From Halopseudomonas salegens (GTDB taxonomy: Bacteria > Pseudomonadota > Gammaproteobacteria > Pseudomonadales > Pseudomonadaceae), in contig NZ_LT629787.1 of assembly GCF_900105655.1 (NCBI RefSeq), positions 2,294,001 through 2,358,000 on the forward strand: a stretch of 64,000 nucleotides of DNA. Direction: 5' to 3'. Shown here one piece after another: positions 1,069 through 33,093 of the stretch (its first letter is position 1; each line of letters opens with the position of its first letter). Position numbers and translations under genes: made by a program. Below the pieces are notes generated by a model. That model had not been told where the DNA came from. It worked only from the letters and a program-made list of their open reading frames with translations, and ran no database searches.

Positions 1069-1198
1069 GAGGCTGTAGAAAAGCCCATTTCGGACTCACC
1101 CAGCAGCCGCTTTCCTGTTGATGTCTGACCCCGAATCATCAGGGCTGTGTTTTCTCGATTATCGCTCGATACCTGATTTTATCACTGTACTGGGTGGA
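1069..1198. mobile_element. Remnant of an IS1182-family element (one terminal end)
   Basis: About 130 bp match, with scattered differences, the left end of the complete element at 27708-29488, starting from its terminal inverted repeat (GAGGCTGTAGAAAA). The match stops near CTGTACTGG and the transposase and right end are missing. The base before the repeat ends a CCCTAGC motif, an altered attC core, which is the same relative insertion point as the complete copy. Confidence 0.8.
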
Positions 1199-17677: not shown

Positions 17678-17761
17678 CTATAACGCCGCCAACACGCGCT
17701 GCTTTACAGTGAAGGCGAAGCCAGAACGAAGGAGCTGTCGCCGAGCTTGGCCTTGTCAGGT
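17678..17761. other. Degenerate integron attC site
   Basis: 84 bp with the same length and order as the attC at 24873-24956: left CTATAACGCCGCCAACACGC, central GAAGGCGAAGCC, then TGTCGCC and a right end TTGTCAGG. The right core is GTCAGG instead of GTTAGG, so recombination is probably weakened. It bounds the toxin-antitoxin pair on the left. Confidence 0.65.
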
Positions 17762-19525: not shown

Positions 19526-20102
19526 CGAGCTTCTTTTACCGATTATGAGATACCGCCGACGTGGAAAATTCCAATTTTTACTGTTTGGCTGCTGATCGCC
19601 CGGGACCCGGGAACAGAGCTTCCATCTCAGTCAATTGTGGCATATCGGCCTTAACAAACAAATATAAGGATTGGCGGTCTCAGGATCCAAGTGCAACACT
19701 CAGTTAATGGATTCAAGATTATTGCTCGCCGACAGCTGAAGGTACTCAACAAGCACTTCAACCGGAAATTTCCAGCCTAACGTCTGGCGTGGTCGAGTAT
19801 TCAGCAAGTTGGCAATCTCATCAAGGCGCTCCTGACTGACCGTGGACAAGTCTGTTCCTTTTGGCAGGTACTGGCGTAGCAGGCCGTTGGTGTTTTCGTT
19901 GCTACCACGCTGCCATGGGCTGTGTGGATCGGCAAAATAGATCTTCATGCCCGTCTGGGCGGTAATGTCCTGATAACGTGCCATTGTTAATGGCCAATTA
20001 ATCTGACCCACCTCTGGCCAACAATTTTGACCCACCCATGGTGGCATAGGCCACCGATCCATGTAGCGTCCCCCGCCTTATGCACAGGCCGGGGACAGAT
20101 CA

Positions 20103-21638
20103 TTGAAGGAGTGGGTTGTGATTCACAAGATCAAGGGGTTGTATGACCAGGGCCGTGGCCTGTCGGTCCGTGCCATCAGTCGCGAGCTGGGGATATCCCG
20201 GAACACCGTACGCAAGTATCTGCACCTGGATGAGGTGCAAATCAGCACTGCCATTGCTGACCCTTCACGCACCAAGTTGCTCGACCAGCACCGTGATTAT
20301 CTGATCAATCAGTTGGGTCAGTTTCCAGCCCTCAGCGCGGTCAAGCTGGCCCGTCGTCTGAGGCAGCGCACCGTTGACCTAGCGGTGTCAGACCGGAGCA
20401 TCCGCCGGTATGTGCAAGAGCTCAAGCAGCAGGTTGCCAGCGGTCAGTTGCGCTATTACGAACCGGTCGTTGAGTCGGTACCGGGCGTCCAGTGTCAGGT
20501 CGATCCTGGTGAGCTGCGAGGCGTCATGATCGGCGGCCTGGAGCGTGTCGTTCACTTTGTGGTGTTTGTGCTGTCCTGTTCCCGCTTGATGTATGTCGGC
20601 CTCGACTTCCGTCCCTTGCACACCGAGCGATTTATTCAGATGCACGACGAGGCCTTCCGTTACTTCGGCGGCGTCACCGAGGAGTGCATCTACGATCAGA
20701 CCAAGATGGTGGTGATTAACGAGCAGTACCGTGAGCTGACGCTGAACCAGCGCTTCCACCAGTATGCGACTACCGTCGGGTACCGCATCCACGCGTGCGA
20801 GGGCTATGACCCGGAGAGCAAGGGCAAGGTGGAGTCCGGGGTCAAGTACGTCAAGCGCGACTGCTTCTACGGTGAGCAGTTCCAGGACGAGAACGCCGTT
20901 CGCCAGCACCTGCATGACTGGCTTGAGACGGTGGCCAACGCCCGCCTGCATGGCACGACGGGCCAGCATCCACGGGTCCATTTCGAGGCGCTGGAGCGTA
21001 GCCAACTCAAGCCCTATCTGGTCCCGCAGAGCCTGCTGCACTTGGCGCCGACAAGGGAGACACGCAAGGTCGACAAGACCGGCTTGATCTCCTGGCAGGC
21101 CAACAAGTACTCGGTACCCATGGCCTGGCAGCAAGCCCGTGTCGGTGTCAGCGCACAGGACGACCAGTTACTGATCCATGACCTGGAGAGCGGTGAACTC
21201 ATCGCCACCCATGACCTGTGCAAGGCCAAGGGCCGGATGATCAAGAACAACAACCATTACCGCGACCATGCCCAGCGCATCACCGACTTGGAGCACAGCA
21301 TCGACTCGATCTTGCCCGATGACCTGGGGGCAACCCTGTGCCAGTTGCTCAAGCGTACTTCCCCGCGCATCTACAAGGACCAGTTGGTCGCCGCACGCGA
21401 CCTACTCATGGCCCATGCGCCGGTTGATACGACGCTGCTTGGTGAGCTGTGCGGGCGCGGCGAGCTGACTGCCACTGGACTCAAGCGCTATCTCGAAGCC
21501 TGGCAGCAAGCCAAGGCGCGGGGGCGGGTCATCAGCGATCAGGACTATGCTCCCGTAACTGGCAGCCAGGTCAGTCACGCCGACCTGAACGCTTACGCCC
21601 GGGTTGGCCAGTCGACTGGCCACGGGGTGACCCCATGA
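20103..21638 (+). CDS. istA: IS21-family transposase IstA
   Basis: 511 residues. N-terminal helix-turn-helix GLSVRAISRELGISRNTVRK. The DDE core follows: CQVDPGELRGVMI with the first Asp, EECIYDQTKMVVI with the second, and ESKGKVESGVKYVKRDCFYG with the Glu. The TTG at 20103 gives the longest fit; a GTG at 20118 would be an alternative. It overlaps istB by 4 bases. IstA cuts and joins DNA ends, with IstB choosing the target. Confidence 0.93.
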   Translation: MKEWVVIHKIKGLYDQGRGLSVRAISRELGISRNTVRKYLHLDEVQISTAIADPSRTKLLDQHRDYLINQLGQFPALSAVKLARRLRQRTVDLAVSDRSIRRYVQELKQQVASGQLRYYEPVVESVPGVQCQVDPGELRGVMIGGLERVVHFVVFVLSCSRLMYVGLDFRPLHTERFIQMHDEAFRYFGGVTEECIYDQTKMVVINEQYRELTLNQRFHQYATTVGYRIHACEGYDPESKGKVESGVKYVKRDCFYGEQFQDENAVRQHLHDWLETVANARLHGTTGQHPRVHFEALERSQLKPYLVPQSLLHLAPTRETRKVDKTGLISWQANKYSVPMAWQQARVGVSAQDDQLLIHDLESGELIATHDLCKAKGRMIKNNNHYRDHAQRITDLEHSIDSILPDDLGATLCQLLKRTSPRIYKDQLVAARDLLMAHAPVDTTLLGELCGRGELTATGLKRYLEAWQQAKARGRVISDQDYAPVTGSQVSHADLNAYARVGQSTGHGVTP

Positions 21639-22375
21639 GCCTGCTCGACAGCACCATCGCGCAGTACCGCAGCCTTCGCCTCAGCGCGACCGCTGGTGAG
21701 CTGGCCACCCTGCTGACCAAGGCCGAAGCCAATGAACTGTCCTACCTGAACTTCGCCCAGTCACTGGTCGAGCATGAGCTGAACGCCCGCTCCAGCAGCC
21801 GCGTGAGCCGCAACCTCAAGCAGGCCCAGTTCCCCTCGGAGAAGCATCTGGAGGCCTTCGACTACCGGCACCAGACCACCATCACCAAGCGCCAGGTCAG
21901 TGCCTTGCTGGACTTCAGCTTTATCGACAACCGGGACAACCTGGTGTTCATCGGACCACCGGGCGTGGGCAAGACCCACTTGGCCATTGGGATTGGCCAC
22001 AAGGCGGTCCAGGCTGGCTACAAGGTGCTGTTCCGCACCGCTCTGGCACTGGTCGAGGATCTAGAACTGGCAGAGATGAAGGGCGAGCTGAAGAAGCGTT
22101 TGAATCAGCTGAGCAAGTACGACGTGCTGATCATCGACGAGCTGGGCTATCTGCCGATGACACGGCAGGCCCGGTACAACCTGTTCCAGTTGATCAACAA
22201 CCTGTACGAGTACCGCTCGGTCATCCTGACCACCAACAAGGACTTCACCAGTTGGGGCGAGTTCTTCCATGACGATAACGTGGCCGTGCCCATCATCGAC
22301 CGCGTTATCCACCATTCACACATTTTTATGCTGGGAGGTGAGAGCTATCGACTGAAGCAGAAAACCGGCGGTTAG
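21635..22375 (+). CDS. istB: IS21-family helper ATPase IstB
   Basis: 246 residues from the ATG at 21635, overlapping the istA stop. DnaA/DnaC-like AAA+ ATPase with Walker A GPPGVGKTHLAIG around residue 110 and Walker B YDVLIIDELGYLPM. The C-terminus RVIHHSHIFMLGGESYRLKQ is typical. It assembles on DNA and directs IstA to targets. It appears intact. Confidence 0.95.
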   Translation: MSLLDSTIAQYRSLRLSATAGELATLLTKAEANELSYLNFAQSLVEHELNARSSSRVSRNLKQAQFPSEKHLEAFDYRHQTTITKRQVSALLDFSFIDNRDNLVFIGPPGVGKTHLAIGIGHKAVQAGYKVLFRTALALVEDLELAEMKGELKKRLNQLSKYDVLIIDELGYLPMTRQARYNLFQLINNLYEYRSVILTTNKDFTSWGEFFHDDNVAVPIIDRVIHHSHIFMLGGESYRLKQKTGG

Positions 22376-23218
22376 CGGTACGCAAGTGGGTCAATTTTAT
22401 TGGCCAAAAGTGGGTCAAAATTAATGGCCATTGACAGCCATCTCACTGCCCTGGTCGTGCGTCATGGTTTTGAGCAGTGAAGGTGCGAGTCGAGTCATTT
22501 CGCGCGTTATCGCCTGTGACGCACATTCAGCCGTTGGGGCGTCCAGCTTGGCCAAAACAACAAAGCGGCTGGTACGCTCAACCATCGTTGCTACGGCCGA
22601 GCGGTTACCGGCTCCCATAATCAGATCGCTTTCCCAGTGCCCCGGAATCAGGCGATCCTCAACCTCTGGAGGTCGCAAATGGATGCTCAGTTCAGAGGGA
22701 TAGCGCTCACGCCGTTCTGCGTTGACTGTGCGGCGGCGACGCTTGCCGTGACCTTGGCGCAAGTAACTGATCAGTTGCCGCTTGAGTTCGCCGCGGGGAT
22801 GCGCGTAGATGGCAAGGTAGATACTTTCGTGACTCACATGAAACTCGGGGCTGTCCGGCCATTGATGTTTCAGTCTGGACGCGATTTGTTGGGGAGACCA
22901 GCCCCGTTTGAGCATTTTGCGTACAACCAGGAAAAACTCGCTGTCTGGTAGCAAGCGACTTTGGCGCCGGGGTATGCTTCGCCGCTCACGCGCCAAGGCG
23001 CAAGCATGAATGACATCGTAATGCTTTCCGGTGCTATTACGTTTGAGTTCCCGACTGAGGCTGCTGGCGTTTCGGCCCAGGTGGAGACTGATAGAACGCA
23101 GGCTCAACCCTTTGTTTCGCATCAGCATCAAGGCGACCCGTTCATCAGTAGTTAAATGCGTGTAGGTTTTCATGGCAACACTTTATCTCATGTGTTGCAC
23201 TTGGACCTCGAGACCGCC

Positions 23219-23363
23219 CATCCTTAAAGATGATTCGGTCGACCTCACTAAGATCTTCAAGACGAATGCCGCCTTTCTCGACCAATGATTTGCACTCGCT
23301 TGCTTCTATGCCAATTTCAGTCCAGGCATAAGAAATGATTTCCCAGACGTAATACCGATCCAT
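23219..23363 (-). pseudogene. Cassette gene truncated by the IS30 element
   Basis: Reads MDRYYVWEIISYAWTEIGIE from the ATG at 23363 and breaks at the IS30 end after about 48 residues (VDRIIFKDG). The remainder of the gene is not found beyond the other IS end, where the gtr region begins. It follows the attC at 23376-23489, so it is the next cassette of the array. Family not recognised, though the spacing and acidic character recall small DUF-type cassette proteins. Confidence 0.55.
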
Positions 23364-23375
23364 GGCATACCTCAC

Positions 23376-23489
23376 GCCTAACGCTTGTAGCACCTGCACA
23401 AATTGTGACGTGCCTTTTGGTGTATTGTGAGCAACGCGAACACCAAAAGGCGCGTTGCAATTTGTGTCAGGTGGCTACACTTGTTAAAT
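23376..23489. other. Integron attC site (attC10)
   Basis: GCCTAAC and GTTAAAT cores bound 114 bp. The long arms pair (CACAAATTGTGACGTGCCTT region with AAGGCGCGTTGCAATTTGTG). The last codons of the VanZ-like gene lie within it. Confidence 0.75.
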
Positions 23490-23859
23490 GTTTGTTTGCT
23501 ACGTAGGCAATGCCGACCGCGATTACTATACCCACCGCGTCTGCGGCTAAATCCACAAAGTCAAAAGTTCTGGATGGTATAAATGCCTGACTAAGCTCCT
23601 CCACAACTACAAATAGTCCAACCAACACAGCACCATAATATAGTTTAAACCCGCCACAAGAAAAAGCCCGAAACTTTGATCCAACAATAGTGACCAAAGT
23701 CAAAAAACCAAAAAGGCACATATGCCCTAGCTTGTCGCCGTAAGGGATCGATCTAATAAAATCGAAAAAAACACTGCTCCCCCCTGTATTCGCCAAGTAG
23801 ATTACCCACAAAATAAATGCGAAAAAAACAACAGCTATGGTTACGATTAGCTTATACAA
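23467..23859 (-). CDS. VanZ-like membrane protein (cassette gene)
   Basis: 130 residues with four hydrophobic segments. IPYGDKLGHMCLFGFLTLVT and VVVEELSQAFIPSRTFDFVD, followed by LAADAVGIVIAVG, are the VanZ-family signature (conserved Glu, Asp and His residues in the membrane). VanZ gives low-level teicoplanin resistance in enterococci; in Gram-negatives the role is unknown. The start overlaps the Coq4-like gene by 13 bases, so the two share one cassette and are translationally linked. Confidence 0.8.
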   Translation of the reverse strand: MYKLIVTIAVVFFAFILWVIYLANTGGSSVFFDFIRSIPYGDKLGHMCLFGFLTLVTIVGSKFRAFSCGGFKLYYGAVLVGLFVVVEELSQAFIPSRTFDFVDLAADAVGIVIAVGIAYVANKHLTSVAT

Positions 23860-24302
23860 AAATCACGCCTTAATTCTGAAAGGTTCTTTGGGATCATGGA
23901 TGCAACAGGAATGTTAGACAAAGGCGTAGCGCTCTTTCCTCGAATTATTTCTTTCCGAAACAAGGAGTGCTTTGACGGGAAAACTATCCATCCAAGTATA
24001 AATAGGACTTTACCAGCGAAAGTGGAATTTTTGTTGCCCCACATAAACGCCTGAAGCTTCAACTCTTCTGTGACTGTCGTTCCGTACCCCAGCAACACGT
24101 GGTAGGAATCGTGCTCTTCGTATTTTGATAGATACCCTAGATTTCTACTACTTAAGAAATTATAGAGCTCCCGACCAAGCGTTTCATCTTCAAATTGAGC
24201 TAGATTCTCAAACGGATACGGCCACGCGTCCGGCGTTCTAAATAAATTCAAGACCGGAACACTCAATTGGATGAGCTTAGCAATAACTTTGTGTCGATTC
24301 AT
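23847..24302 (-). CDS. Coq4-like protein (cassette gene)
   Basis: 151 residues. The central EEHDSYHVLLGYGTTVTEEL carries the HDxxH motif of Coq4, the scaffold or hydroxylase-like factor of ubiquinone synthesis, followed by LKLQAFMWGNKNS as in that family. The N-terminus (NLFRTPDAWPYPFENLAQFE) is also consistent. It is shorter than typical Coq4 (about 220 residues). Function in the cassette is unknown. It begins next to attC9 and is the first gene of a two-gene cassette. Confidence 0.65.
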   Translation of the reverse strand: MNRHKVIAKLIQLSVPVLNLFRTPDAWPYPFENLAQFEDETLGRELYNFLSSRNLGYLSKYEEHDSYHVLLGYGTTVTEELKLQAFMWGNKNSTFAGKVLFILGWIVFPSKHSLFRKEIIRGKSATPLSNIPVASMIPKNLSELRRDFCIS

Positions 24303-24308
24303 GATTAC

Positions 24309-24377
24309 ATTTAACGCCCAGCTCAGCGGGCAATTGAAGCGAAGCGTAGATTGCTCCGCTGCAGCTGCTTGTTATAA
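24309..24377. other. Integron attC site (attC9)
   Basis: 69 bp with ATTTAAC and GTTATAA cores and pairing arms (GCTCAGCGGGCAATTGAAGC against ATTGCTCCGCTGCAGC). Confidence 0.8.
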
Positions 24378-24380
24378 GGT

Positions 24381-24863
24381 CTATCTTTCATAGCTATTCA
24401 AGACTCCTTCGTGGAGACGGCGACATTGCTTCAGAATCTCCAGCGAAGCTGCTATTAGATGTTCATTTCTTCCCAGCTCAACTTCACCATCTGGTGAGTA
24501 CTTACCGCCGTGGAAGAGATTATTCCTGACCGTTCGAACCATTTTTAATAACTGCTGAGTAGATCGCTGACCTTGCTCAAGCTCTTGCTCAACAAACTGA
24601 AGGCGACCATCTCTGAGCACTTGTTTCCTCGGCCGCTGTTCTAGTAAGAACTTTGCGGCCTCAGCAAGATGCTCGTCTTCCAATTGAGTAAAGCGCTCAT
24701 GTATGTGGTTCGCGAAACGGTCCCAAGCAGGATCGACTCTGGCGGGGCCACCATCGGCAAACTCAGTTGATTTAAGAGCGTATTCCATGCGAGAAAACAC
24801 TGCTAGAAACTCTGTCGCCAGTTCGACCGGGATATTCAACTGCCTGAAGATAGCTCCATTCAT
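24381..24863 (-). CDS. Hypothetical cassette protein, possibly HEPN-like
   Basis: 160 residues, predicted mostly helical. Near residue 115 the sequence LLKMVRTVRNNLFHGGKYSP contains RNNLFH, the R-x4-H pattern of HEPN domains, which are often RNases in defence and toxin-antitoxin systems. The surrounding pattern (helix, RNNLFHGGK, helix) also occurs in non-toxic HEPN proteins. No second gene is present in the cassette. It is flanked by attC8 and attC9 and read in the array direction. Confidence 0.6.
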   Translation of the reverse strand: MNGAIFRQLNIPVELATEFLAVFSRMEYALKSTEFADGGPARVDPAWDRFANHIHERFTQLEDEHLAEAAKFLLEQRPRKQVLRDGRLQFVEQELEQGQRSTQQLLKMVRTVRNNLFHGGKYSPDGEVELGRNEHLIAASLEILKQCRRLHEGVLNSYER

Positions 24864-24872
24864 GGTTCTGCC

Positions 24873-24956
24873 TTATAACGCCCGCAGCATGCGCGGCTTT
24901 GGAATGGAGGCGAAGCCGCAATGGAAAAGCCGTCGCCTTGCCTGCGATTGTTAGGA
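24873..24956. other. Integron attC site (attC8)
   Basis: 84 bp with TTATAAC and GTTAGGA cores. Arms GCCCGCAGCATGCGCGGC and GCCGTCGCCTTGCCTGCGA pair imperfectly. It is almost identical to attC7. Confidence 0.88.
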
Positions 24957-24959
24957 CAA

Positions 24960-25286
24960 TCAACTATGCCCGAATTCATCAAGTCGTCGCACCTCAAGCC
25001 CGATCTCATCGGAAGACGACATTATATTGCGAAGGATCTGCGGTGAAATTGCCACGCCGTCCTCTTCGATAGCCAGTGAAAGGTTCAGCTCCTTTGACTG
25101 ATCCAGCAAGCCCCGTACTAGCGCAAAAGTTTCTTCAATCTCGTTGTCAAAGATCTCACGCTCGAAAACAGGCGCCTCGGTTTCGAGGGCCCAAGTGACT
25201 TCAGCAATGCTTGCCTTGGTCAGCGATCGGACTGCCTTCACGACAGCTCCCGATTTGGAGCCACCAAGAACTGTAATTGAAATCAC
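24960..25286 (-). CDS. Hypothetical cassette protein
   Basis: 108 residues from a GTG at 25286 (read as MISITVLGGSKSGAVVKAVR). The frame is open to 25328 but that would start inside attC7. The sequence is acidic, looks like a small alpha-beta domain (ISITVLGG strand, then SKSGAVVKAVRSLTKASIAE) and resembles the size of ferredoxin-like folds. No family recognised. Flanked by attC7 and attC8. Confidence 0.6.
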   Translation of the reverse strand: MISITVLGGSKSGAVVKAVRSLTKASIAEVTWALETEAPVFEREIFDNEIEETFALVRGLLDQSKELNLSLAIEEDGVAISPQILRNIMSSSDEIGLEVRRLDEFGHS

Positions 25287-25311
25287 CGACTTACATACCC
25301 TCGGCTCATGT

Positions 25312-25394
25312 CCTAACGCCCGCAGCATGCGCGGCTTTGGAATGGAGGCGAAGCCGCAATGGAAAAGACGTCGCCGTGCCTGCGATGGTTATGC
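25312..25394. other. Integron attC site (attC7)
   Basis: 83 bp with CCTAAC and GTTATGC cores. Differs from attC8 at only a few positions. Confidence 0.88.
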
Positions 25395-25397
25395 TTT

Positions 25398-25781
25398 TTA
25401 CTCATACTGAGCGGCCTCATCTCTTAGGCATTGCGCCAAGTCAGCCGGTTCCATAACCCAGAACACCCACTCTTTGTTCGGAAATACCGCGACCTTAACA
25501 TTGTCAGCCTCAAAGGTTGGCAGCCAATGGGATAGAAATTCTTCAAGTGCTATCTCTACCGCATGATGGCCAGGGAAATGCTCATCAACAATTTTTTGAG
25601 CATACTCGGGGTGCGGCCAAACGGGGAAATACTCTAAATCTTCGGGAGTGATCGGAACCAGCCAGCCAAGATCGTTTTTGACACCCCACAACTGCCCCCA
25701 ATCAGCAACCTTTCCAACAAAATGAGAGCTTCGGTCAGCACTGCTAAGTGCTAACACAGCATCGAATTGTTGGGGATTCAT
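25398..25781 (-). CDS. DUF2750-family protein (cassette gene)
   Basis: 127 residues from the ATG at 25781 (MNPQQFDAVLALSSADRSSH); a GTG four codons earlier is possible. The regions DWGQLWGVKNDLGWLVPITP, FPVWPHPEYAQKIV and the C-terminal KEWVFWVMEPADLAQCLRDE are characteristic of DUF2750, a family of unknown function. Soluble and acidic. Flanked by attC6 and attC7. Confidence 0.75.
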   Translation of the reverse strand: MNPQQFDAVLALSSADRSSHFVGKVADWGQLWGVKNDLGWLVPITPEDLEYFPVWPHPEYAQKIVDEHFPGHHAVEIALEEFLSHWLPTFEADNVKVAVFPNKEWVFWVMEPADLAQCLRDEAAQYE

Positions 25782-25808
25782 TTTGTAAGGCACTCGAAAT
25801 CCTTATGA

Positions 25809-25886
25809 GCATAACGCAGAGCTTTGCGGCAATTTTGTAGCCGCAAAGCGGTGGAAAAATTGTCCGGCAACAGTGACTGGTTATCC
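25809..25886. other. Integron attC site (attC6)
   Basis: 78 bp with GCATAAC and GTTATCC cores. Near-identical to attC1 and attC4 (shared TTTGCGGCAATTTTGTAGCC). Confidence 0.88.
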
Positions 25887-25887
25887 A

Positions 25888-26151
25888 TTATTCGTAGTGG
25901 CTCCAGAGGCGGAGGACTTTTACCACTTTCTCGTCTTCGAGCACTTGGTATACCAGGCGGTGCTGGATATTGATGCGGCGTGAATAGGCACCCGCAAGAT
26001 CACCAATAAGCTTCTCAAGCGGAGGCGGCTTGCGGTACGGATCTTCTGCAATTAGTGCCAACAACTCTTGGGCTTTTGGTTTGAGGCCGCTGGAGGCCAG
26101 CTTCTTTGCATCTTTCTGGGCTTGTTTGGTGTAAACCAACTTCCATGTCAC
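25888..26151 (-). CDS. Txe/YoeB-family toxin (cassette gene)
   Basis: 87 residues. RelE-fold toxin: KLVYTKQAQKDAKKLASSGL, PPPLEKLIGDLAGAYSRRIN, HRLVYQVLEDEKVVKVLRLW, ending SHYE with the conserved His-Tyr. Expected to cut mRNA on ribosomes. The start overlaps the antitoxin stop by four bases (ATGA), so the two are translated together. Toxin-antitoxin cassettes are known to stabilise large arrays. Confidence 0.9.
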   Translation of the reverse strand: MTWKLVYTKQAQKDAKKLASSGLKPKAQELLALIAEDPYRKPPPLEKLIGDLAGAYSRRINIQHRLVYQVLEDEKVVKVLRLWSHYE

Positions 26152-26390
26152 CAGTTCAGCTCCTCATCGCATTCATCCACGGAGGTATCCATTCCCTCAC
26201 GAATAGACTCACGCATACCCGGTACGGAAAGCAGGTAAAGCGTTTCCTGGATGGCAGACCAGTCATCCTCCGAGATCAGGACAGCTTTGTTTCGCTTGCC
26301 CAGAATGACGATTGGTTGATGGGATTCGGCAGTCTCGTCAATCAACCGATAAAGGTTGCTGCGCGCCTCAGTTGCTGTGATTCCGGTCAT
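26148..26390 (-). CDS. Phd/YefM-family antitoxin (cassette gene)
   Basis: 80 residues. The YefM pattern is clear: MTGITATEARSNLYRLIDET, HQPIVILGKRNKAVLISEDD, WSAIQETLYLLSVPG, then an acidic toxin-binding tail (DECDEELNW). It probably represses its own promoter. First gene of a two-gene cassette between attC5 and attC6, read in array direction. Confidence 0.92.
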   Translation of the reverse strand: MTGITATEARSNLYRLIDETAESHQPIVILGKRNKAVLISEDDWSAIQETLYLLSVPGMRESIREGMDTSVDECDEELNW

Positions 26391-26462
26391 GACGCACCTA
26401 TTGCGTGTTCAACTTTTCACCAAGTGTACGCCTCCAATCACGTACGTCAAGACGGACGTCAT

Positions 26463-26540
26463 GCATAACGTGTGAACTCATGGGCCGGCTTATAGCCGCG
26501 AAGCGGCGGAGAGCCGGTCCCATGCAGTGATTGGTTATGA
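26463..26540. other. Integron attC site (attC5)
   Basis: 78 bp with GCATAAC and GTTATGA cores. Arms GGGCCGGCTTATAGCCGCGA and GAGAGCCGGTCCCATGCAGT. The stop codon of the DUF1272 gene is inside the right core. Confidence 0.85.
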
Positions 26541-26783
26541 ATTGGCAACACAGCCTCCAATCTTATGGACACGCTTTGTTGAAGCCGGATATTTGGCCAG
26601 GAGCTGCACAGGACGGATTGGGCGAGTCACAAGATTCCCGCCACAGTTTGGGCACTGGTGGTTCAGGACCTGGGCTGCGCAAGAAACGCAAAAGGTGCAT
26701 TCGAAGGTACAGATTACTGCCTCGGTCGATTCCGGCAGTAGGTCTCTATCACAGCACTCACAGTTCGGCCTTAGCTCAAGCAT
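26535..26783 (-). CDS. DUF1272-family zinc-ribbon protein (cassette gene)
   Basis: 82 residues. LELRPNCECCDRDLLPESTE, ICTFECTFCVSCAAQVLNHQ and CPNCGGNLVTRPIRPVQLL match DUF1272, with eight conserved cysteines that probably bind zinc. Function unknown. The stop codon sits within the GTTAT core of attC5, so the gene and its recombination site overlap. Flanked by attC4 and attC5. Confidence 0.88.
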   Translation of the reverse strand: MLELRPNCECCDRDLLPESTEAVICTFECTFCVSCAAQVLNHQCPNCGGNLVTRPIRPVQLLAKYPASTKRVHKIGGCVANS

Positions 26784-26802
26784 CCATGTCTCCGTGCTGA
26801 TT

Positions 26803-26879
26803 CATAACGTAGAGCTTTGCGGCAATTTTGTAGCCGCGAAGCGGTGGAGAAATTGTCCGGCAAAAGCGACTGGTTAGAT
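26803..26879. other. Integron attC site (attC4)
   Basis: 77 bp with CATAACG and GTTAGAT cores. Near-identical to attC1 and attC6. Confidence 0.88.
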
Positions 26880-27272
26880 TGCTTTTGCATAGCAGTGCCA
26901 GATGCTGAGCCCTGAGAAAACACCACTGGCACAAAAATACAACCCGTTGGTATGCCAGTACGCTTCGAAATGTCCCCCCGTGTATGGATAGAACCATACC
27001 GCCCAAAATGCAGCACCGCACAAAAAGCCGCCGAAAATAAAATACTGCCAGCCAATTGCACCCAATCTTCGAGCCAACAAGAACAATGGTACGCCCAATA
27101 CGACTGCAACCACCCAGCCAATTATAGTCGCGACTATTCCATACATCCCAATCGCAGACATCAGAGAAAAACCACTGCTACCCAGGAGCGCAGCGCCACT
27201 CAAAAACAGCGCGGTGACCGCGAACATCGCAATGGGTATACCTCTGAAAATGCTGAGTAATAGGTATCTCAT
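26874..27272 (-). CDS. Membrane protein, cassette gene
   Basis: 132 residues with four hydrophobic segments (for example GIPIAMFAVTALFLSGAALL and ATIIGWVVAVVLGVPLFLLA), so an inner-membrane protein. No family recognised. The stop overlaps attC4. Read in array direction between attC3 and attC4. Confidence 0.65.
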   Translation of the reverse strand: MRYLLLSIFRGIPIAMFAVTALFLSGAALLGSSGFSLMSAIGMYGIVATIIGWVVAVVLGVPLFLLARRLGAIGWQYFIFGGFLCGAAFWAVWFYPYTGGHFEAYWHTNGLYFCASGVFSGLSIWHCYAKAI

Positions 27273-27287
27273 CGGTATCTCATAGCA

Positions 27288-27380
27288 ATCTAACGCCCGG
27301 CTTTGGGGCGGTCTTGTAGCCGCGAAGCGGCGGAGGGGCCGTCCCAGCCCCGCAGGGGCGACAACAGCCGATTGTTAGTA
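27288..27380. other. Integron attC site (attC3)
   Basis: 93 bp with ATCTAAC and GTTAGTA cores. GC-rich arms GGGGCGGTCTTGTAGCCGCG and CGGAGGGGCCGTCCCAGCCC pair. An extra GGCGACAACAGCC segment makes it longer than its neighbours. Confidence 0.82.
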
Positions 27381-27386
27381 GCTTTT

Positions 27387-27686
27387 CTACTCATGCTTTA
27401 AGTGGTGCTCGTAGAGATACTCGACGTTGACCGGCGTCATTTGTGCGCCACGGCATGATGGAATCTTGCTTTCCATAAATAGCTGCGATAGATCGTCTAT
27501 CGGCCATGGTGAATTTGATTTTTCGAGTATCAAATAAAGCTCAGCGGCTGCACGGATGAACTCTCGCGAATACGTCGTTGCCCAGCTTCCAGGGCCGTGG
27601 GTGTTTGGCAGATATTCGCCTTGATATTTTTTACATGTAGAGATTAGCTCGCGAACCCTGGCCTTCTTCGATTTAGGAATTTTCAT
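27387..27686 (-). CDS. Hypothetical cassette protein
   Basis: 99 residues (MKIPKSKKARVRELISTCKK). Basic N-terminus, no membrane segment, predicted mostly helical. The WATTYSREFIRAAAELYLIL stretch is the most conserved-looking part, but I cannot name a family. Its upstream attC is the one carrying the IS1182-family element, and its own attC is attC3. Confidence 0.6.
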   Translation of the reverse strand: MKIPKSKKARVRELISTCKKYQGEYLPNTHGPGSWATTYSREFIRAAAELYLILEKSNSPWPIDDLSQLFMESKIPSCRGAQMTPVNVEYLYEHHLKHE

Positions 27687-27707
27687 GAGACTCCCTGAGC
27701 GACTAAC

Positions 27708-29488
27708 GAGGCTGTAGAAAAACCCATTTCGGACTCATCCAGCCGCCGTCTTCCTGTTCATGTGTGACCCCGAATCATCAGGGTTGTGTTTTCTCAGTTG
27801 CCGACCAAAAGCTGACTTTATCGCTGTACTGGTGTTCTGAGGCTTGGCAACCCAGTGCTATCAGCCATATTGTCCGTAATTCGCCAGTTTCTCAATGTTG
27901 TGTATCAGGCAATACAGCTGCCATTGGCCCTGGACCTTTCTACGGCCCCGCAAGCTGAAGCGACTCAGCCGCTTGTTGGTGCCGATATTGCCAAACACAG
28001 GTTCCACCACTGACATCCTGTGGCTGTAGATCGCCCTGCCTTCAGGACTATCCACCCGGTGCTTCATCCAGTCGGTGTAACTGGGAGGCCGGTTAGCTTC
28101 GAGCTGGAATGATACTTGTCTTCCTGCCCCCTTGCGGTGTTCTGCCGATTGCGGGTTATGCATGCACGCTTCGCGCTTGGGGCAGTGTCGGCATTGCAGC
28201 AGTCGGCCTTCGAAGTAAGCGACTGGGATGCCGTTGTCATTTGCACGTACGCCCCGGTGGCTCAGCTGTTGTCCGGCGGGGCAGATGCAGGTCATCTTGA
28301 TTGGGTCAAACTTAAAAGCACCGGCTGGAAACGTGGTTTTGCGGGTCTGGCCTGCAGGCTTCTGGTGACGCTTGCCGTATTTGTCTTTCTGCTCGGCAAA
28401 GCGCGGGTCGCGGCTCCGGAACCGATTGTCCGGGATGTAGCCGTTGATTTTCCGGTCATGCAGGTAGTGCATATTCGCTTCGTTGGCGAAGCCCGTGTCG
28501 GCAGTGACAACCGTGCCTTGCTGGTAGATGCTGTCGGCGATGCCCAGCTTCTTATAGCGGGCTTCGACCGTTTCCAGCACCGGTTGTAGGGTATGGTGCT
28601 CCTGCCCTTCGCCAAAGGCCTGAGCATCGATGATGACCTGGTATTTCCTGTCCACTGTGGCCACGCCGTTATAACCCTGGATCGTGCCCTTGCTGGTGGT
28701 CATCTTGGCGCTTTCATTATCGGTGATGTTGCTCTTCACTTCCTTGCGGCGTTTACCCTGGCCCATCCTTGGACTCTGGGTCTTTAAAAAGCGATCGACC
28801 TTTTCCATGGCCTGATCCAGCGAGAGGATCATCTTGCCATGACGGATGGCGCGTTCCATCTCAGCTTCAGTCTCGGCGGAGTCGTGCTGACGGTGCTCAG
28901 CCAAGTGGTGGCGTATCAGTTTGCGTAGCTTATCGCGCTTGGCCTTCAGTTCCTTGAAGGTGCCTGACCACTCCTTGGCAGCATTGGATGAGGTCTTACA
29001 ACCGTCGATAGCAAACAGCTCGTTTCCCAGCAAACCCTGCTGGTGACAGACCAACAGCACTTGCTCAAACACAGCTTCGATGGCTTCTGCATTCTCGCTG
29101 ACAAAGCTCGCCAGCGTGGTGAAGTGCGGGACCGTATCGCAGGACAGGGCCTTGAACAGAATGTTGGTTTCACAGCACCACTGAATCTGGCGGCTGGAGG
29201 TAATGCCTTTGGAGTAGGCAAACAGGATGATCTTCAACAGGATGGCTGGATCGTAGGCCAGGCGGCCGGTGTCCTCATTGCGATAACGCGGGTGAAATAC
29301 CGACAGATCCAGCTTGTGTTCAATCAGGTAGTGAACCGCGTACTCGAACGTACCTGGCTGGAGCTGCTCTTGGTAGTTGATCACCACCATGCTGTGCTGG
29401 CTGTAGTCGTAGGGCTTGAAGCGTGGCATGCAACACTCCTTGTTGGTCTGCCCAAATCCTAGCAAATCAGGGGTTTTTCTACAGCCTC
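27708..29488 (-). mobile_element. IS1182-family insertion sequence inserted in an attC
   Basis: 1,781 bp with matching terminal repeats GAGGCTGTAGAAAAACCC at both ends and a 3-bp AAC duplication (27705-27707 and 29489-29491). It holds one intact transposase. Its left end is also found, diverged, at 1069-1198, inserted at the same place in an attC-like core. Confidence 0.88.
27861..29429 (-). CDS. IS1182-family transposase
   Basis: 522 residues from the ATG at 29429 (MPRFKPYDYSQHSMVVINYQ) with AGGAG upstream. DDE transposase of the IS1182 type: FAIDGCKTSSNAAKEWSGTF with the first Asp, VVTADTGFANEANMHYLHDR with the second, and SVVEPVFGNIGTNKRLSRFS with the Glu. A cysteine cluster (CICPAGQ, CRHCPKREAC) near residue 405 is typical. 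Intact. Confidence 0.93.
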   Translation of the reverse strand: MPRFKPYDYSQHSMVVINYQEQLQPGTFEYAVHYLIEHKLDLSVFHPRYRNEDTGRLAYDPAILLKIILFAYSKGITSSRQIQWCCETNILFKALSCDTVPHFTTLASFVSENAEAIEAVFEQVLLVCHQQGLLGNELFAIDGCKTSSNAAKEWSGTFKELKAKRDKLRKLIRHHLAEHRQHDSAETEAEMERAIRHGKMILSLDQAMEKVDRFLKTQSPRMGQGKRRKEVKSNITDNESAKMTTSKGTIQGYNGVATVDRKYQVIIDAQAFGEGQEHHTLQPVLETVEARYKKLGIADSIYQQGTVVTADTGFANEANMHYLHDRKINGYIPDNRFRSRDPRFAEQKDKYGKRHQKPAGQTRKTTFPAGAFKFDPIKMTCICPAGQQLSHRGVRANDNGIPVAYFEGRLLQCRHCPKREACMHNPQSAEHRKGAGRQVSFQLEANRPPSYTDWMKHRVDSPEGRAIYSHRMSVVEPVFGNIGTNKRLSRFSLRGRRKVQGQWQLYCLIHNIEKLANYGQYG

Positions 29489-29578
29489 AACGCCTGCCAC
29501 AGCGGCTAAAAATGAACGTCAGTGAGTTTTTAGTCCAAAGCCCGGAACGGGCTGGCTGCTGGCGATTGTTAGGTTCTT

Positions 29579-30097
29579 TTACCATGATTTCTTTATGTTT
29601 GCCCAATATTCTTCGTGTTCTGGTGTGCACGGAAAATTACGTAAAAGTGTTGGAGATTTATAAAAGTCGTTTTGCGTATAACTCCACCTAAAAATATGAC
29701 CATCATGAGCAAAAGCCGTATGGCCGTAAAACCCTTCTAGATTGATAAGTGCATCTATAAAAGACTCACGAATAATACATTCAGGTTTTGGTTCGGGTAA
29801 AAGATGGGAGATTCTGCTTTCCAATAATGCTTCCCCACTAAATAAAAATAACACTATGAAAGTACTGCTAGCTATAAAGTACTTAATTGCCAAATGCAGT
29901 TTTATATGTCGAATTAGCAATATAAGTGCAATAGATGAAAAACCCGAAATAAACAGGGGAATCCAGAGGAATTCAATGGAAGAAAGAAGATAAAAGAGTG
30001 CTAAAGGTGGTATCAAAGCTAAGTGATCAGCTCCAATTGTTAGCCAGAAAACAATCCATAGTAAGCATACTGGAATTAAATTGATGATTAGTTTCAT
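29579..30097 (-). CDS. Membrane protein, cassette gene
   Basis: 172 residues. Three or four hydrophobic segments in the first 100 residues (for example INLIPVCLLWIVFWLTIGAD, LWIPLFISGFSSIALILLIR), then a soluble domain of about 70 residues with GFYGHTAFAHDGHIFRWSYT. AT-rich like other cassettes. No family recognised. It lies between attC1 and the split attC2. Confidence 0.65.
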   Translation of the reverse strand: MKLIINLIPVCLLWIVFWLTIGADHLALIPPLALFYLLSSIEFLWIPLFISGFSSIALILLIRHIKLHLAIKYFIASSTFIVLFLFSGEALLESRISHLLPEPKPECIIRESFIDALINLEGFYGHTAFAHDGHIFRWSYTQNDFYKSPTLLRNFPCTPEHEEYWANIKKSW

Positions 30098-30102
30098 GGG
30101 AA

Positions 30103-30179
30103 CCTAACGTGGAGCTTTGCGGCAATTTTGTAGCCGCGAAGCGGTGGAGAAATTGTCCGACAAAAGCGAATTGTTAGGC
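30103..30179. other. Integron attC site (attC1)
   Basis: 77 bp with CCTAACG and GTTAGGC cores. The arms TTTGCGGCAATTTTGTAGCC and GGAGAAATTGTCCGACAAAA pair. Closest attC to the integrase. Confidence 0.9.
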
Positions 30180-30614
30180 CCTTTTGCGAATAATATAAAC
30201 GGCTTCATCACCATACTTAACCTTGCCTATTTCATGTATGGAATCTACAACACCCTGTGCTTCTTCTGGAACCTCCGAACCCCATACAACACCCTCATAT
30301 TCATATGGATAGGGCGTACCATTTGGATTTGGTGAATGAAGAAATATTCCATTATTTCCGGTGTTTTCACACAAAGTAGCCCATACCTGAATTGGCTCTT
30401 CGCGCTGTACACAACGCGCCTCAACCCGAAGAAGTAATTTGTATGTAAGCGAAGCAACCAAGCCCCTTGCTTTATTTGCACGGCACTTCATATCAGGATG
30501 TGTATGCCAATATGAAAACCAGCTAGACATATCTAGTCTGTCAATATGCGAGTTACATGAGGCTTCTCGCTCTGCTAGATAACGTGTGATACGTTTTTTG
30601 AATCTACGATCCAT
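30174..30614 (-). CDS. Hypothetical protein of the first cassette
   Basis: 146 residues from the ATG at 30614 (MDRRFKKRITRYLAEREASC). The frame also has an ATG at 30635 that spans the attI junction and would add seven residues. Soluble, basic at the N-terminus, with aromatic-rich SSWFSYWHTHPD and a C-terminal domain containing GTPYPYEYEGVVWG. No family recognised. As the cassette nearest attI it is likely the best expressed of the array and the most recently acquired. Confidence 0.65.
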   Translation of the reverse strand: MDRRFKKRITRYLAEREASCNSHIDRLDMSSWFSYWHTHPDMKCRANKARGLVASLTYKLLLRVEARCVQREEPIQVWATLCENTGNNGIFLHSPNPNGTPYPYEYEGVVWGSEVPEEAQGVVDSIHEIGKVKYGDEAVYIIRKRA

Positions 30615-30626
30615 CTTTTTTTGTAG

Positions 30627-30700
30627 GCCTAACATTTATATAGTGGTCTCACCGACCAATATGTCGATGAACGTTTTGTCCTTCCGATATTCATCCCGGC
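30627..30700. other. attI integration site (approximate extent)
   Basis: The junction between the first cassette and the integrase side is GCCTAAC (30627-30633), the reverse of a GTTAGGC core. The next 70 bp towards the integrase have no attC-like arms, as expected of attI. The right limit is an estimate. Confidence 0.7.
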
Positions 30701-30886
30701 GCCCCTTCAATCCTGCATTTAACCTTGCTTTTGGGCTTTTAGCGCTTATTTCACTAGCCGACAAAATGATCATCGAGCCTCATATCTCAGTTTTTCGCCA
30801 ATGTCCCAACCCATTGAGTTTAGACAAGAAAATGGAGTGTCGCGCTGTTGCTCCAAGATATCGGTCACAAGGGCCGTTTTCCTGGC

Positions 30887-30938
30887 TTGCCCAATGCAAT
30901 ATTTTTATTAATACTGTTTATGCATACAGCATAAGGAG
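30887..30938 (+). promoter_or_regulatory. Integrase promoter with LexA box and ribosome site
   Basis: TACTGTTTATGCATACAGCA (30912-30931) fits the LexA consensus CTGT-N8-ACAG exactly. Candidate promoter boxes TTGCCC (30887) and TAATAC (30909) are 16 bp apart, and the LexA box overlaps the second, so repression by LexA and induction by DNA damage are expected. AAGGAG (30933-30938) precedes the ATG by six bases. Confidence 0.82.
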
Positions 30939-30944
30939 CAGTCA

Positions 30945-31931
30945 ATGGATGACATTCCGATTCCCCTACCGGCGCAACCTGCGCGCTTTATGGATCGATT
31001 CAGGGCGCATATGCGGGCCAAGCGTCTGGCTTACCGCACTGAAAAAACTTATTGCCTCTGGGTGCTTGATTTCATTCGTTTTCACAAGCGTCGTCATCCT
31101 GAAACGATGGGAGCGGCAGAAGTTGATGCCTGGTTGAGCTACCTGGCTAACCAACGCCACGTGGCAATTAATACCCAGAAAACGGCCCTCAATGCAGTAG
31201 TTTATCTATATCGGCAGTTCCTTGAACGTGACTTGGGTGAGCTGCAGTTCAACAAAACCAACAAGGGCAGGCGCTTGCCTGTGGTGTTTTCCCATGAAGA
31301 GGCCATGCAGGTGATTGACGCCATGAACGGTGTCCATCAATTGGTGGCCAGTCTGATGTACGGTTCTGGTCTTCGGGTCATGGAAGCCGTGCGTTTGCGA
31401 GTGCAGGATGTCGACTTCTCCGAGCAATGCCTTTTTATTCGTGAGGCCAAGGGCGAAAAGTGGCGCCGTACACTGCTGCCGCATGCTTTGCTGGCACCCT
31501 TAAGGGCACAGATCGATATGGCTCTGGCGCTCCATAAACGTGATCTTCTGGATGGCTATGGCGCCGTTTATCTACCAGGCGCTCTCGACAAGAAATACCC
31601 AAAGGCTGCGACCAGTTCGCAGTGGCAATATATATTCCCTGCCCCTAATCGGGCGATGGATCCTCGCAGCCAGGTTATGCGCCGGCACCACGTCGGTGAA
31701 CAACAGGTTCGTCGCGCGATGGCTGCTGCCATGTCCAGATTGGATATTCGTAAAAAAGCCAGTTGCCATACCTTTCGCCACAGCTTCGCCACCAATTTGC
31801 TCAAGGCCGGCACTGATATTCGCAGCATTCAAGAGCTGATGGGGCATACCGATGTGAATACGACAATGATTTACACCCATGTTGTCGGGGCGCATGCCCG
31901 TGGCGTGGCCAGCCCGCTGGACCGGTCTTGA
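30945..31931 (+). CDS. intI: Integron integrase IntI
   Basis: 328 residues, tyrosine recombinase. Catalytic residues are visible: Arg in YGSGLRVMEAVRLRVQDV, His and Arg in SCHTFRHSFATNLLKAG, His in GHTDVNTTMIYTHV with the Tyr nucleophile. The IntI-specific insert is present (LDKKYPKAATSSQWQYIFPA, RHHVGEQQVRRAM), which separates integron integrases from XerC/D. The N-terminal domain has RFRAHMRAKRLAYRTEKTY. It resembles chromosomal integron integrases of Pseudomonas and related marine bacteria. It is transcribed away from attI and the cassettes, the usual layout. It appears intact. Confidence 0.96.
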   Translation: MDDIPIPLPAQPARFMDRFRAHMRAKRLAYRTEKTYCLWVLDFIRFHKRRHPETMGAAEVDAWLSYLANQRHVAINTQKTALNAVVYLYRQFLERDLGELQFNKTNKGRRLPVVFSHEEAMQVIDAMNGVHQLVASLMYGSGLRVMEAVRLRVQDVDFSEQCLFIREAKGEKWRRTLLPHALLAPLRAQIDMALALHKRDLLDGYGAVYLPGALDKKYPKAATSSQWQYIFPAPNRAMDPRSQVMRRHHVGEQQVRRAMAAAMSRLDIRKKASCHTFRHSFATNLLKAGTDIRSIQELMGHTDVNTTMIYTHVVGAHARGVASPLDRS

Positions 31932-32137
31932 TGTTACAATTGATCGGAGACGCTACCGCCCTACCCTGTTTACGCGAGCATGCCGGTGGTACGCCACATC
32001 AACTGATTGTCACTTCAGGAAGGAAGTCAGTTCATCCATAAACGGGGACTGGCATCCGGCCATTAGTATTGACCATAAACCAGGATTGTCGGTTTTTCCA
32101 GTTGCGGGGGCGTTTTCTTGCTCGGATTGTTGTGCAC

Positions 32138-32464
32138 TCAGAACGGCGGAAAGCCTGCCATGCGCCAGCAGCCGCTGAGATCCAGGGCCATATGAATGAC
32201 CAGCCCGAGCCCGATCAGGCGTGTCGGGCGCCAGGTGCACATCAGCAGGTAGATGCCGATGGCGGGCCAGGTGTGCAGGGGATGAAAACCGATGGAGCAG
32301 CGGTCGGGAGAGAAGATGGGGGTGGCGAGCAGGTGGTCGAGGTCGACCAGCATGGTGGCCAGCATGATCAGCCAGGCTTTGAGCCAGATGCTGCGGTAAC
32401 CGAACCAGGCGACCAGTCCGGGTACCAGGGCATGCAGCAGCAGATGTATTGCGGTGGTGAGCAT
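32138..32464 (-). CDS. DUF6122-like membrane protein
   Basis: 108 residues, about four hydrophobic segments. HALVPGLVAWFGYRS, MLVDLDHLLATPIFSPDRCS, IGFHPLHTWPAIGIYLLM and GLVIHMALDLSGC contain repeated histidine and aspartate residues in the membrane part, as in DUF6122 and distantly in metal-dependent hydrolases of the YdjM type. Function unknown. It overlaps the DsbA-like gene by one base, so the two are probably co-transcribed. Confidence 0.65.
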   Translation of the reverse strand: MLTTAIHLLLHALVPGLVAWFGYRSIWLKAWLIMLATMLVDLDHLLATPIFSPDRCSIGFHPLHTWPAIGIYLLMCTWRPTRLIGLGLVIHMALDLSGCWRMAGFPPF

Positions 32465-33093
32465 CAGACGGCTTGTTTTGCCCCGGCGGCGAGCCAGCGC
32501 TCGAGCAGTGATTGCACGGCTTCGGGGGGCTGGTAACCGTTGGCCAACAGGGCCAGTTGGCCGTTGCGCTCGGCCAGCAGGGTCGGGAAGCCGCTGATAC
32601 CCAGATCCCCTACCCAGTTGATATCACTGGCCAGGCCGGCCAGGCTGGCTTCCGCGTCGTAGGCTTCGGCAAAGCGCTGTGCCTTGTAGCCTGCCGATTC
32701 AGCCAGCGCCACCAGGGTGCTGGTGACGGTGATGTCTTCGGCGCGGGCATAAAAGGCCGATTGCATGGCTTGCACCAGCGGCCAGACCTTTTTGGCATCC
32801 AGCCCACGTGCGGTGACCAGTGCGCGGCAAGCAGGGGTGGTGTTATAGCAAAAGTCTGCCGGCAAGGCGTCTATCGAGGTAAAGGGCTGGCCGGAGACGT
32901 CGGCGACGGCGATCCAGTGCTCATTGAGCGCGTCGCGGGTGGCAGTATCCAGCGGTTCACGGGCTGACCGCAGGCCACCGGCAACCAGGTGCACAGGCAC
33001 CTCGCCGGCTTGCACGATCTGCTCGATCACCGGCGCAAAGCCCCAGCACCAGGAACACATCGGGTCCATTACGTAGATCAGGCGCTGGGACAT
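32464..33093 (-). CDS. DsbA-family thioredoxin-fold protein
   Basis: 209 residues from the ATG at 33093, with GAGGAAA upstream; a much longer open frame exists but lacks protein-like features before this point. DPMCSWCWGFAPV near the N-terminus is the CxxC active site (CSWC), followed by a helical insertion and LGISGFPTLLAERNGQL with the cis-proline. No signal peptide, so it is cytoplasmic, like the FrnE/2-hydroxychromene isomerase branch. It lies 10 bp behind trhO. Confidence 0.85.
   Translation of the reverse strand: MSQRLIYVMDPMCSWCWGFAPVIEQIVQAGEVPVHLVAGGLRSAREPLDTATRDALNEHWIAVADVSGQPFTSIDALPADFCYNTTPACRALVTARGLDAKKVWPLVQAMQSAFYARAEDITVTSTLVALAESAGYKAQRFAEAYDAEASLAGLASDINWVGDLGISGFPTLLAERNGQLALLANGYQPPEAVQSLLERWLAAGAKQAV

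Follow-up and report, generated by a model that had tools for sequence, protein, structure and literature searches.

Gene cassettes beyond the first few of an integron are described as silent in the available part of PMC11023631, and clusters of attC sites lacking integron integrases (CALIN) have already been stated to be mobilisable in trans (PMC12444791); the available parts of PMC12444791 and PMC9229058 describe such clusters and mention neither attI nor ops in them. The ops (operon polarity suppressor) element, a 12-base site, recruits the antiterminator RfaH in the non-template strand of leaders, where termination is suppressed (PMC6391919 and PMC9765446, as far as their available text goes). 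No link between RfaH and integron arrays appeared in the titles among the literature matches listed, and PMC4048246, in which the terms RfaH, integron, gene cassette and ops occur together, concerns surface-polysaccharide operons in its available part. Here, a 64-kb stretch (the window; positions 2,294,001-2,358,000 of a single 3,796,005-bp contig) from Halopseudomonas salegens, which belongs to the same genus as Halopseudomonas pelagia, is analysed for the integron that it carries. A reading made earlier from the sequence alone had called this element an integron, and that identification is supported, the element itself being of a known kind; its ops leader, together with integrase-less attI arrays, sets it apart from that kind. 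The integron looks to be in working order and is one of four attI-headed arrays in the chromosome, and its cassettes are probably read by long, RfaH-protected transcripts that arrive from co-oriented upstream genes. An RfaH loading site before the array would, if true, change the picture of integron cassettes.

The platform comprises the following features:

30945-31931, plus strand: intI_A, an intact integron integrase of 328 amino acids (TIGR02249, 405.8 bits against a cut-off of 265; PDB 2a3v)
30914-30929, plus strand: LexA-type box CTGTTTATGCATACAG upstream of intI_A (motif scan)
30627-30680, minus strand: attI_A core, identified by homology, with the crossover between the G and the TTAGGC of GTTAGGC at 30627-30633
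31950-31961, minus strand: ops element GGGCGGTAGCGT, in the cassette direction and antisense to intI (motif; Rfam JUMPstart below its gathering score)
32138-32464, minus strand: DUF6122 gene, the last of a minus-strand run aimed at ops

The sequence GGCGGTAGCG, which we take to be the core of ops, starts 19 bp beyond the intI_A stop codon on the cassette strand, and the motif common to the platforms on that strand is GGCGGTAGCG(T). The conserved sequence past intI had been considered as the end of a mobile unit, an idea given up once leaders of operons next to rfaH suggested ops instead. In the 37 genomes of the genus examined, 17 of the 21 intI loci that have 400 bp of downstream sequence carry ops antisense to intI and 13-25 bp past the integrase match (at most two mismatches to a 14-mer; L046 was too short to judge), and the best match on the sense strand has three to six mismatches at all 21. 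Three of the four loci without it belong to G035 and G029, which carry a near-identical third integrase group, and to G011, where the integrase match is truncated; the fourth is that of G023. The core also stands upstream of 12 of 13 attI_A sites, which were found without using ops (the exception is G014:C1:2870425), and three of these 12 overlap the 17 intI loci. At platforms without intI, ops mostly lies 246-301 bp before attI and in one case 458 bp before it. The exact motif occurs 95 times in the 37 genomes, against nine occurrences of a reversed control: 16 are within 1.5 kb of an RfaH-family match (13 above the cut-off and three below), 14 are beside intI, eight are at attI_A sites without an intact intI, and 57 are elsewhere. 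When 20 motif places were sampled (16 from these 57 and four from the rfaH group), eight were recognised by eye as integrase-less platforms with a second attI type, seven of them with attC. The H. salegens genome has four exact matches, at three integron platforms and, at 2191977, before another gene; the 3.274-Mb platform carries ops with a variant first base.

These observations could also be explained by an ordinary SOS-controlled chromosomal integron in which ops is a passive relic of shared platform ancestry and the cassettes are read from the usual cassette promoter (Pc) near attI. All parts of a normal integron are present, and because the platforms share much sequence besides ops, their common descent is plain. 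However, the ops positions are better conserved than their flanks: in an alignment of 34 leaders anchored at the motif, identity averages 99% at the 12 positions, 43-57% over the 60 preceding bases and 47% over the 30 following ones, although the 99% is inflated because the rows were chosen for carrying the motif, and the counts of 17 of 21 and 12 of 13 given above are the fairer figures. In addition, ops accompanies two integrase types that are 48% identical, and it is absent from all 11 loci of two other genera of the family that carry the same integrase type (71-77% identity), so it is not tied to intI. Outside the genus, ops was absent at 20 of 22 integrase loci (all eight from other families and 12 of 14 from other genera of the family), and the two loci with an exact ops both come from genus g16. 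The relic explanation appears unlikely, and the family offers natural controls, since an integrase of one type occurs in it both next to ops and without it. A further alternative is that ops serves the integrase, an RfaH-protected antisense transcript through intI and attI damping intI expression or access to attI. The closeness of ops to the end of the integrase match is consistent with such a role, as any transcript through ops would be antisense to intI, but ops is kept at the eight attI_A platforms and the eight sampled platforms of the second attI type with no integrase found beside them, which makes a role for the integrase's benefit quite improbable.

The preferred reading, RfaH-protected read-through into the cassettes, draws on the genes around the platforms. 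The H. salegens genome encodes RfaH (171 bits against a cut-off of 144.5), which was found above the cut-off in 29 of the 37 genomes. Upstream of the window array and in the same direction lie trhO, a DsbA-like gene and the DUF6122 gene, and the other platforms inspected stand behind co-oriented purL, rimO, pnp, a decarboxylase locus, the signal recognition particle RNA, or cydC with a VC0807-family gene (this leaves aside the neighbours of G030 and of G013:C9:325856). On the minus strand, 30560-32500 showed no terminator-like site. RNA polymerase would enter from the co-oriented upstream gene (in the window, the run of trhO, DsbA-like and DUF6122 genes), pause at ops, take up RfaH and become resistant to Rho, cross the untranslated antisense intI and attI (about 1.3 kb in the window and about 0.3 kb at most sites without intI), and then read far into the cassettes. 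Distal cassettes of the window array may in this way be read through, unlike the published silent ones. The ops-headed arrays suggest an unexpected way in which captured genes might be switched on.

Several observations weigh against this interpretation. G023 is a plain exception, with an integrase and no ops, and the 57 of 95 exact motifs noted above lie at neither rfaH, intI nor attI_A; similarly, 12 of the 20 sampled motif places were not integron platforms (they were other leaders or places without attC). JUMPstart was the sole Rfam match in the 301 bases around the window ops, at 13.5 bits, and four of five non-integron leaders tested matched it at 24.7-26.4 bits (the fifth, in the H. salegens genome, gave no match). 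These matches, like the excess of the motif over its reversed control and its occurrences near RfaH-family matches, support the name ops, but all of the JUMPstart scores fall below the gathering score of 35. At 16 integron loci JUMPstart gave no match at E ≤ 1, suggesting that the integron leaders carry the ops core and not a good full JUMPstart motif. Of the marks of an RfaH-controlled unit, the ops core on the non-template strand and an RfaH gene were found, and JUMPstart at its curated score was not. Eight of the 37 genomes have no RfaH above the cut-off, and three of them (G019, where ops is degenerate, G026 and G027, the latter two being 81% and 93% complete) are nevertheless among the 17 with an ops-like core, which argues against a strict link between ops and RfaH. 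As no sigma-70-like promoter was found in 30560-32500, the source of transcription is an assumption, and the conservation of the platforms partly reflects common descent. As a separate observation, L162, L165, L169, L170, L173 and L179 have ops- or JUMPstart-like leaders before Wzz-like and low-molecular-weight phosphatase-like genes of the genus (named by eye).

Two of the four attI-headed arrays in the H. salegens chromosome have their own integrase and two do not. The window array has 10 attC sites, the purL integron 19, the array at 819-832 kb 13 and that at 3.274-3.294 Mb 14; the count for 819-832 kb comprises 12 sites found by the covariance model R2 at E ≤ 1 and one found by a separate attC finder, and the training of R2 (24 attC, all outside the window) drew on eight of the 19 purL sites and one of the 13 at 819-832 kb. 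No integrase was found by tblastn at the 819-832 kb and 3.274-3.294 Mb arrays, both of which start with an attI of the attI_A type. The arrays also have cassettes in common: the toxin-antitoxin cassette of the window (cassette 6) has a 95.0% identical copy in the purL integron, and its VanZ/Coq4-like cassette (cassette 10) has a 96.6% identical copy at 821 kb. The first cassette after the 3.274-Mb attI matches, save for an IS21 insertion, the first cassette of the intact integron of a metagenome bin.

Across the genus, the attI_A pattern was found at 14 places in six of the 37 genomes, and one doubtful place (G024:C1:169744) was dropped. Three of the 13 remaining sites have an intact intI, two have integrase fragments (G013:C9:325856 and G014:C1:2870425) and eight have no integrase. 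In other genomes, attC followed attI in all seven scanned loci without an adjoining intact intI (8, 3, 4, 1, 2, 6 and 17 sites by R2; L124-L129 and L103). Such arrays might be dead leftovers that have had no further use since intI was lost, a view compatible with other readings and favoured by the integrase fragments kept at two of the 13 attI_A sites. However, when the same places were compared between genomes (purL, rimO and the decarboxylase locus), homology ended exactly one base past the attI GTT in four of six comparisons; in the remaining two it stops short of attI, so that they say nothing on this point. This pattern suggests that related species have different cassettes following one and the same attI, as would be expected from recombination there, and it renders the leftover explanation somewhat unlikely. 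Because attI sites without an integrase show changing cassettes, it is suggested that one integrase can serve several arrays per chromosome. More tentatively, and with a little less than an even chance of being correct, the genus may have a distributed integron, with attI arrays scattered behind housekeeping genes, many of them integrase-less and served in trans, and each switched on as a single long RfaH-protected transcript that runs in past an ops element; RfaH antitermination would then supply the means, otherwise missing, of expressing distal cassettes.

The sequence-only reading had described intI_A as an intact integron integrase with its specific insert, and the profile match and structural comparison agree: among PDB entries the integron integrase 2a3v matches best, in an alignment that spans residues 14-327 and takes in the integron-specific insert. 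Grouping with XerC or XerD, which would have spoken against it, was not seen, since scores against these models (119.5 and 116.2 bits) are far under the cut-offs of 335 and 330. The attI junction placed beside intI was also borne out, as attI_A is conserved in two relatives whose intI is intact and at two loci of the H. salegens genome that have no integrase, and the breakpoints agree with it. A LexA box had been placed over the intI promoter. The exact CTGT-N8-ACAG is present and starts 31 bp ahead of the intI_A ATG, and CTGTNTATNNATACAG, a stricter form, has a single occurrence in the 3.8-Mb genome; the overlap with a promoter found no support, as a consensus scan showed no sigma-70-like promoter on either strand of 30560-32500. 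Near the intI start, CTG-N10-CAG was found in 19 of 22 intI loci of the genus, with CTGG-N8-ACAG in place of the exact form in two close relatives. Because the LexA-type box stands just upstream, we infer that intI_A is under SOS control; DNA damage is expected to induce IntI_A, which would recombine attI with bottom-strand attC hairpins. The 64-kb window contains no tRNAs and no Rfam match at gathering scores.

All ten attC sites of the array, listed earlier as belonging to minus-strand cassettes divergent from intI, were scored by R2 (E 3e-18 to 0.0024); one of them (27701-27707 and 29489-29574) is split by an insertion sequence. Outside the array, R2 found an isolated attC-like site at 17678-17761 (E 8.5e-8), which is perhaps decayed given that its last box is GTCAGGT, and weak matches at 10897 (E 0.15) and 15894 (E 0.41). 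With DNA energies, the bottom (plus) strand folds more stably than the top at all ten sites, and nine folds are within the lowest 3% of 200 dinucleotide shuffles; the exception is attC 25311-25394 (z 0.1; 107 of 200 shuffles equally or more stable). The separate finder recovered nine of the ten (the split site was missed) and three other places in the 64 kb, with a background of four matches across three shuffled windows. An earlier 49-column model, R1, was discarded as too weak, recovering two of the ten sites at E ≤ 10 in the window and three of the ten genome-wide (150 of 1397 candidates scored). The covariation score of its alignment was higher for the structure slid by one column (0.266) than for the structure in register (0.241), and the count of pairs changed on both sides was no better than in shuffles, so that support was mixed.

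With respect to its place in the genus, the earlier description as a chromosomal integron holds for the integron itself, while the integrase type and site are not those usual in the genus. Querying with intI_A gave matches at E ≤ 1e-60 in 21 of the 37 genomes, and the window type (at least 87% identity) was found in three: H. salegens, H. pelagia (G013) and the metagenome bin. A tree of 30 integrases, in which the program warned that some long branches elsewhere may join falsely, places intI_A with those of Microbulbifer and Cellvibrionaceae (100/100) and away from the type that is common in the genus. H. salegens carries this common type as well, beside purL, and it is the one 48% identical to intI_A. 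The flanks of the purL integron are common to three of five genomes compared (G018, G007 and G016), whereas those of the window integron differ from the H. pelagia copy, in which the window's right flank is on another contig. An integrase and a place shared by related species, the mark of a sedentary integron, were thus found for the purL integron and not for that of the window. H. pelagia also carries a second, broken copy of the window-type integrase with attI (L006, 1-441), about 9.7 kb from the intact one. In G031, considered as an empty site of the window integron, no attC adjoins the DUF6122 gene, whose neighbouring genes we take to be phosphonate-transport-like, and one finder match lies about 5 kb off inside a long open reading frame (ORF); because the left side of the window has no match in G031, integron boundaries were not set from it. 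At the chromosomal position of the window integron, the close relative G026 (L087, 1-1150) carries cassettes and an attI of another kind, and the stretch fetched contains no integrase. The near-identical third integrase group, presumably a class 1 integron integrase, occurs across several genera (L057 of G029, also G035 and G021), and the array of G029 holds a 60-base attC, assumed to be of the aadA type.

The ten cassettes are complete with attC, and two hold two ORFs (the toxin-antitoxin pair and the Coq4-like and VanZ-like genes). Six of the ten encode a protein without a Pfam match at E ≤ 0.1, and PADLOC found no defence genes among the ten cassette proteins given to it (best E 0.013; the toxin-antitoxin pair was left out). 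In order from attI, the cassettes are:

30102-30179, minus strand: attC of cassette 1 (R2 E 3e-18; fold)
30174-30617, minus strand: ORF of cassette 1, 147 amino acids, no Pfam or NCBIfam match (profile search)
29489-29574, minus strand: larger part of the attC of cassette 2, split by the insertion sequence, with the rest at 27701-27707 (R2 match 29484-29574, E 0.00024)
29579-30097, minus strand: ORF of cassette 2, 172 amino acids, hydrophobic, no Pfam match (profile search)
27288-27380, minus strand: attC of cassette 3 (R2); ORF 27387-27686, 99 amino acids, no Pfam match
26802-26879, minus strand: attC of cassette 4 (R2); ORF 26874-27272, 132 amino acids, hydrophobic, no Pfam match
26463-26540, minus strand: attC of cassette 5 (R2); ORF 26535-26783, DUF1272
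25809-25886, minus strand: attC of cassette 6 (R2); PhdYefM-like antitoxin 26148-26390 and YoeB/ParE-like toxin 25888-26151
25311-25394, minus strand: attC of cassette 7 (R2); ORF 25398-25781, DUF2750
24873-24956, minus strand: attC of cassette 8 (R2); ORF 24960-25295, no Pfam match
24309-24377, minus strand: attC of cassette 9 (R2); ORF 24381-24863, no Pfam match
23376-23489, minus strand: attC of cassette 10 (R2); Coq4-like 23847-24302 and VanZ-like 23467-23859
23200-23363, minus strand: ORF remnant of an eleventh cassette, low end approximate, cut by an IS30-type element

This IS30-type element (19700-23173), itself split by an IS21-type element, truncates the array at its far end, and a second IS30 copy lies at 2447-3463 in the opposite orientation. 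The insertion sequence within the attC of cassette 2 is as follows:

27708-29488, strand not assigned: insertion sequence GAGGCTGTAG..CTACAGCCTC, with a DDE transposase at 27861-29429 (minus strand) and AAC on either side, inside the attC R' box

The transposase contains DUF772 and DDE_Tnp_1_6 (Pfam), by which we take the element to belong to the IS1182 family. The H. salegens genome has four copies with intact ends, three of which are internally shortened, and all four stand between AAC and AACG, each inside the R' box of a separate attC. Elsewhere in the family, AACG follows all six 3' ends observed of the element (five loci); the flank is a called attC at three of these (L103 by R2, L104 and L108 by the finder), and no attC was called in the flank at the remaining three. 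Copies were recorded at window 27708-29488 and in L050, L069 (two copies), L103, L104, L106, L107 and L108, and a plasmid search returned one 47-base match only. A 125-base fragment of the same element, 85% identical, lies at window 1069-1193, preceded by CCCTAGC, one base off an attC R' box. The element looks like an attC-targeting group apart from the attC-targeting IS1111 elements.

Compared with known systems, this insertion sequence resembles IS1272, a member of the IS1182 family that targets inverted repeats (PMC5678879, in the part available), in standing at a hairpin; IS1272 replaces the target hairpin, whereas the window element keeps the attC with AAC at both ends. It resembles the attC-targeting IS1111 elements, as these are presented in citing references, in lying inside attC, and differs from them in its DDE_Tnp_1_6 transposase. 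With RfaH-controlled operons that carry ops/JUMPstart, the platform shares the GGCGGTAGCG core on the coding strand of the leader and RfaH in the genome, but the downstream unit is an integron array and JUMPstart stays below its gathering score. At 819-832 kb and 3.274-3.294 Mb, attC sites stand in arrays where no integrase was found, as in CALIN, but these arrays keep attI and an ops leader, and such attI loci show cassette turnover. The closest likeness in overall anatomy is to the sedentary chromosomal integrons of Vibrio, Pseudomonas and Xanthomonas, with which the window integron shares IntI, attI, an attC array read away from intI, a LexA-type box, mostly unknown cassettes and a toxin-antitoxin cassette; it differs from them in having ten cassettes, an integrase and place uncommon in its genus, and an ops core at the end of the platform.

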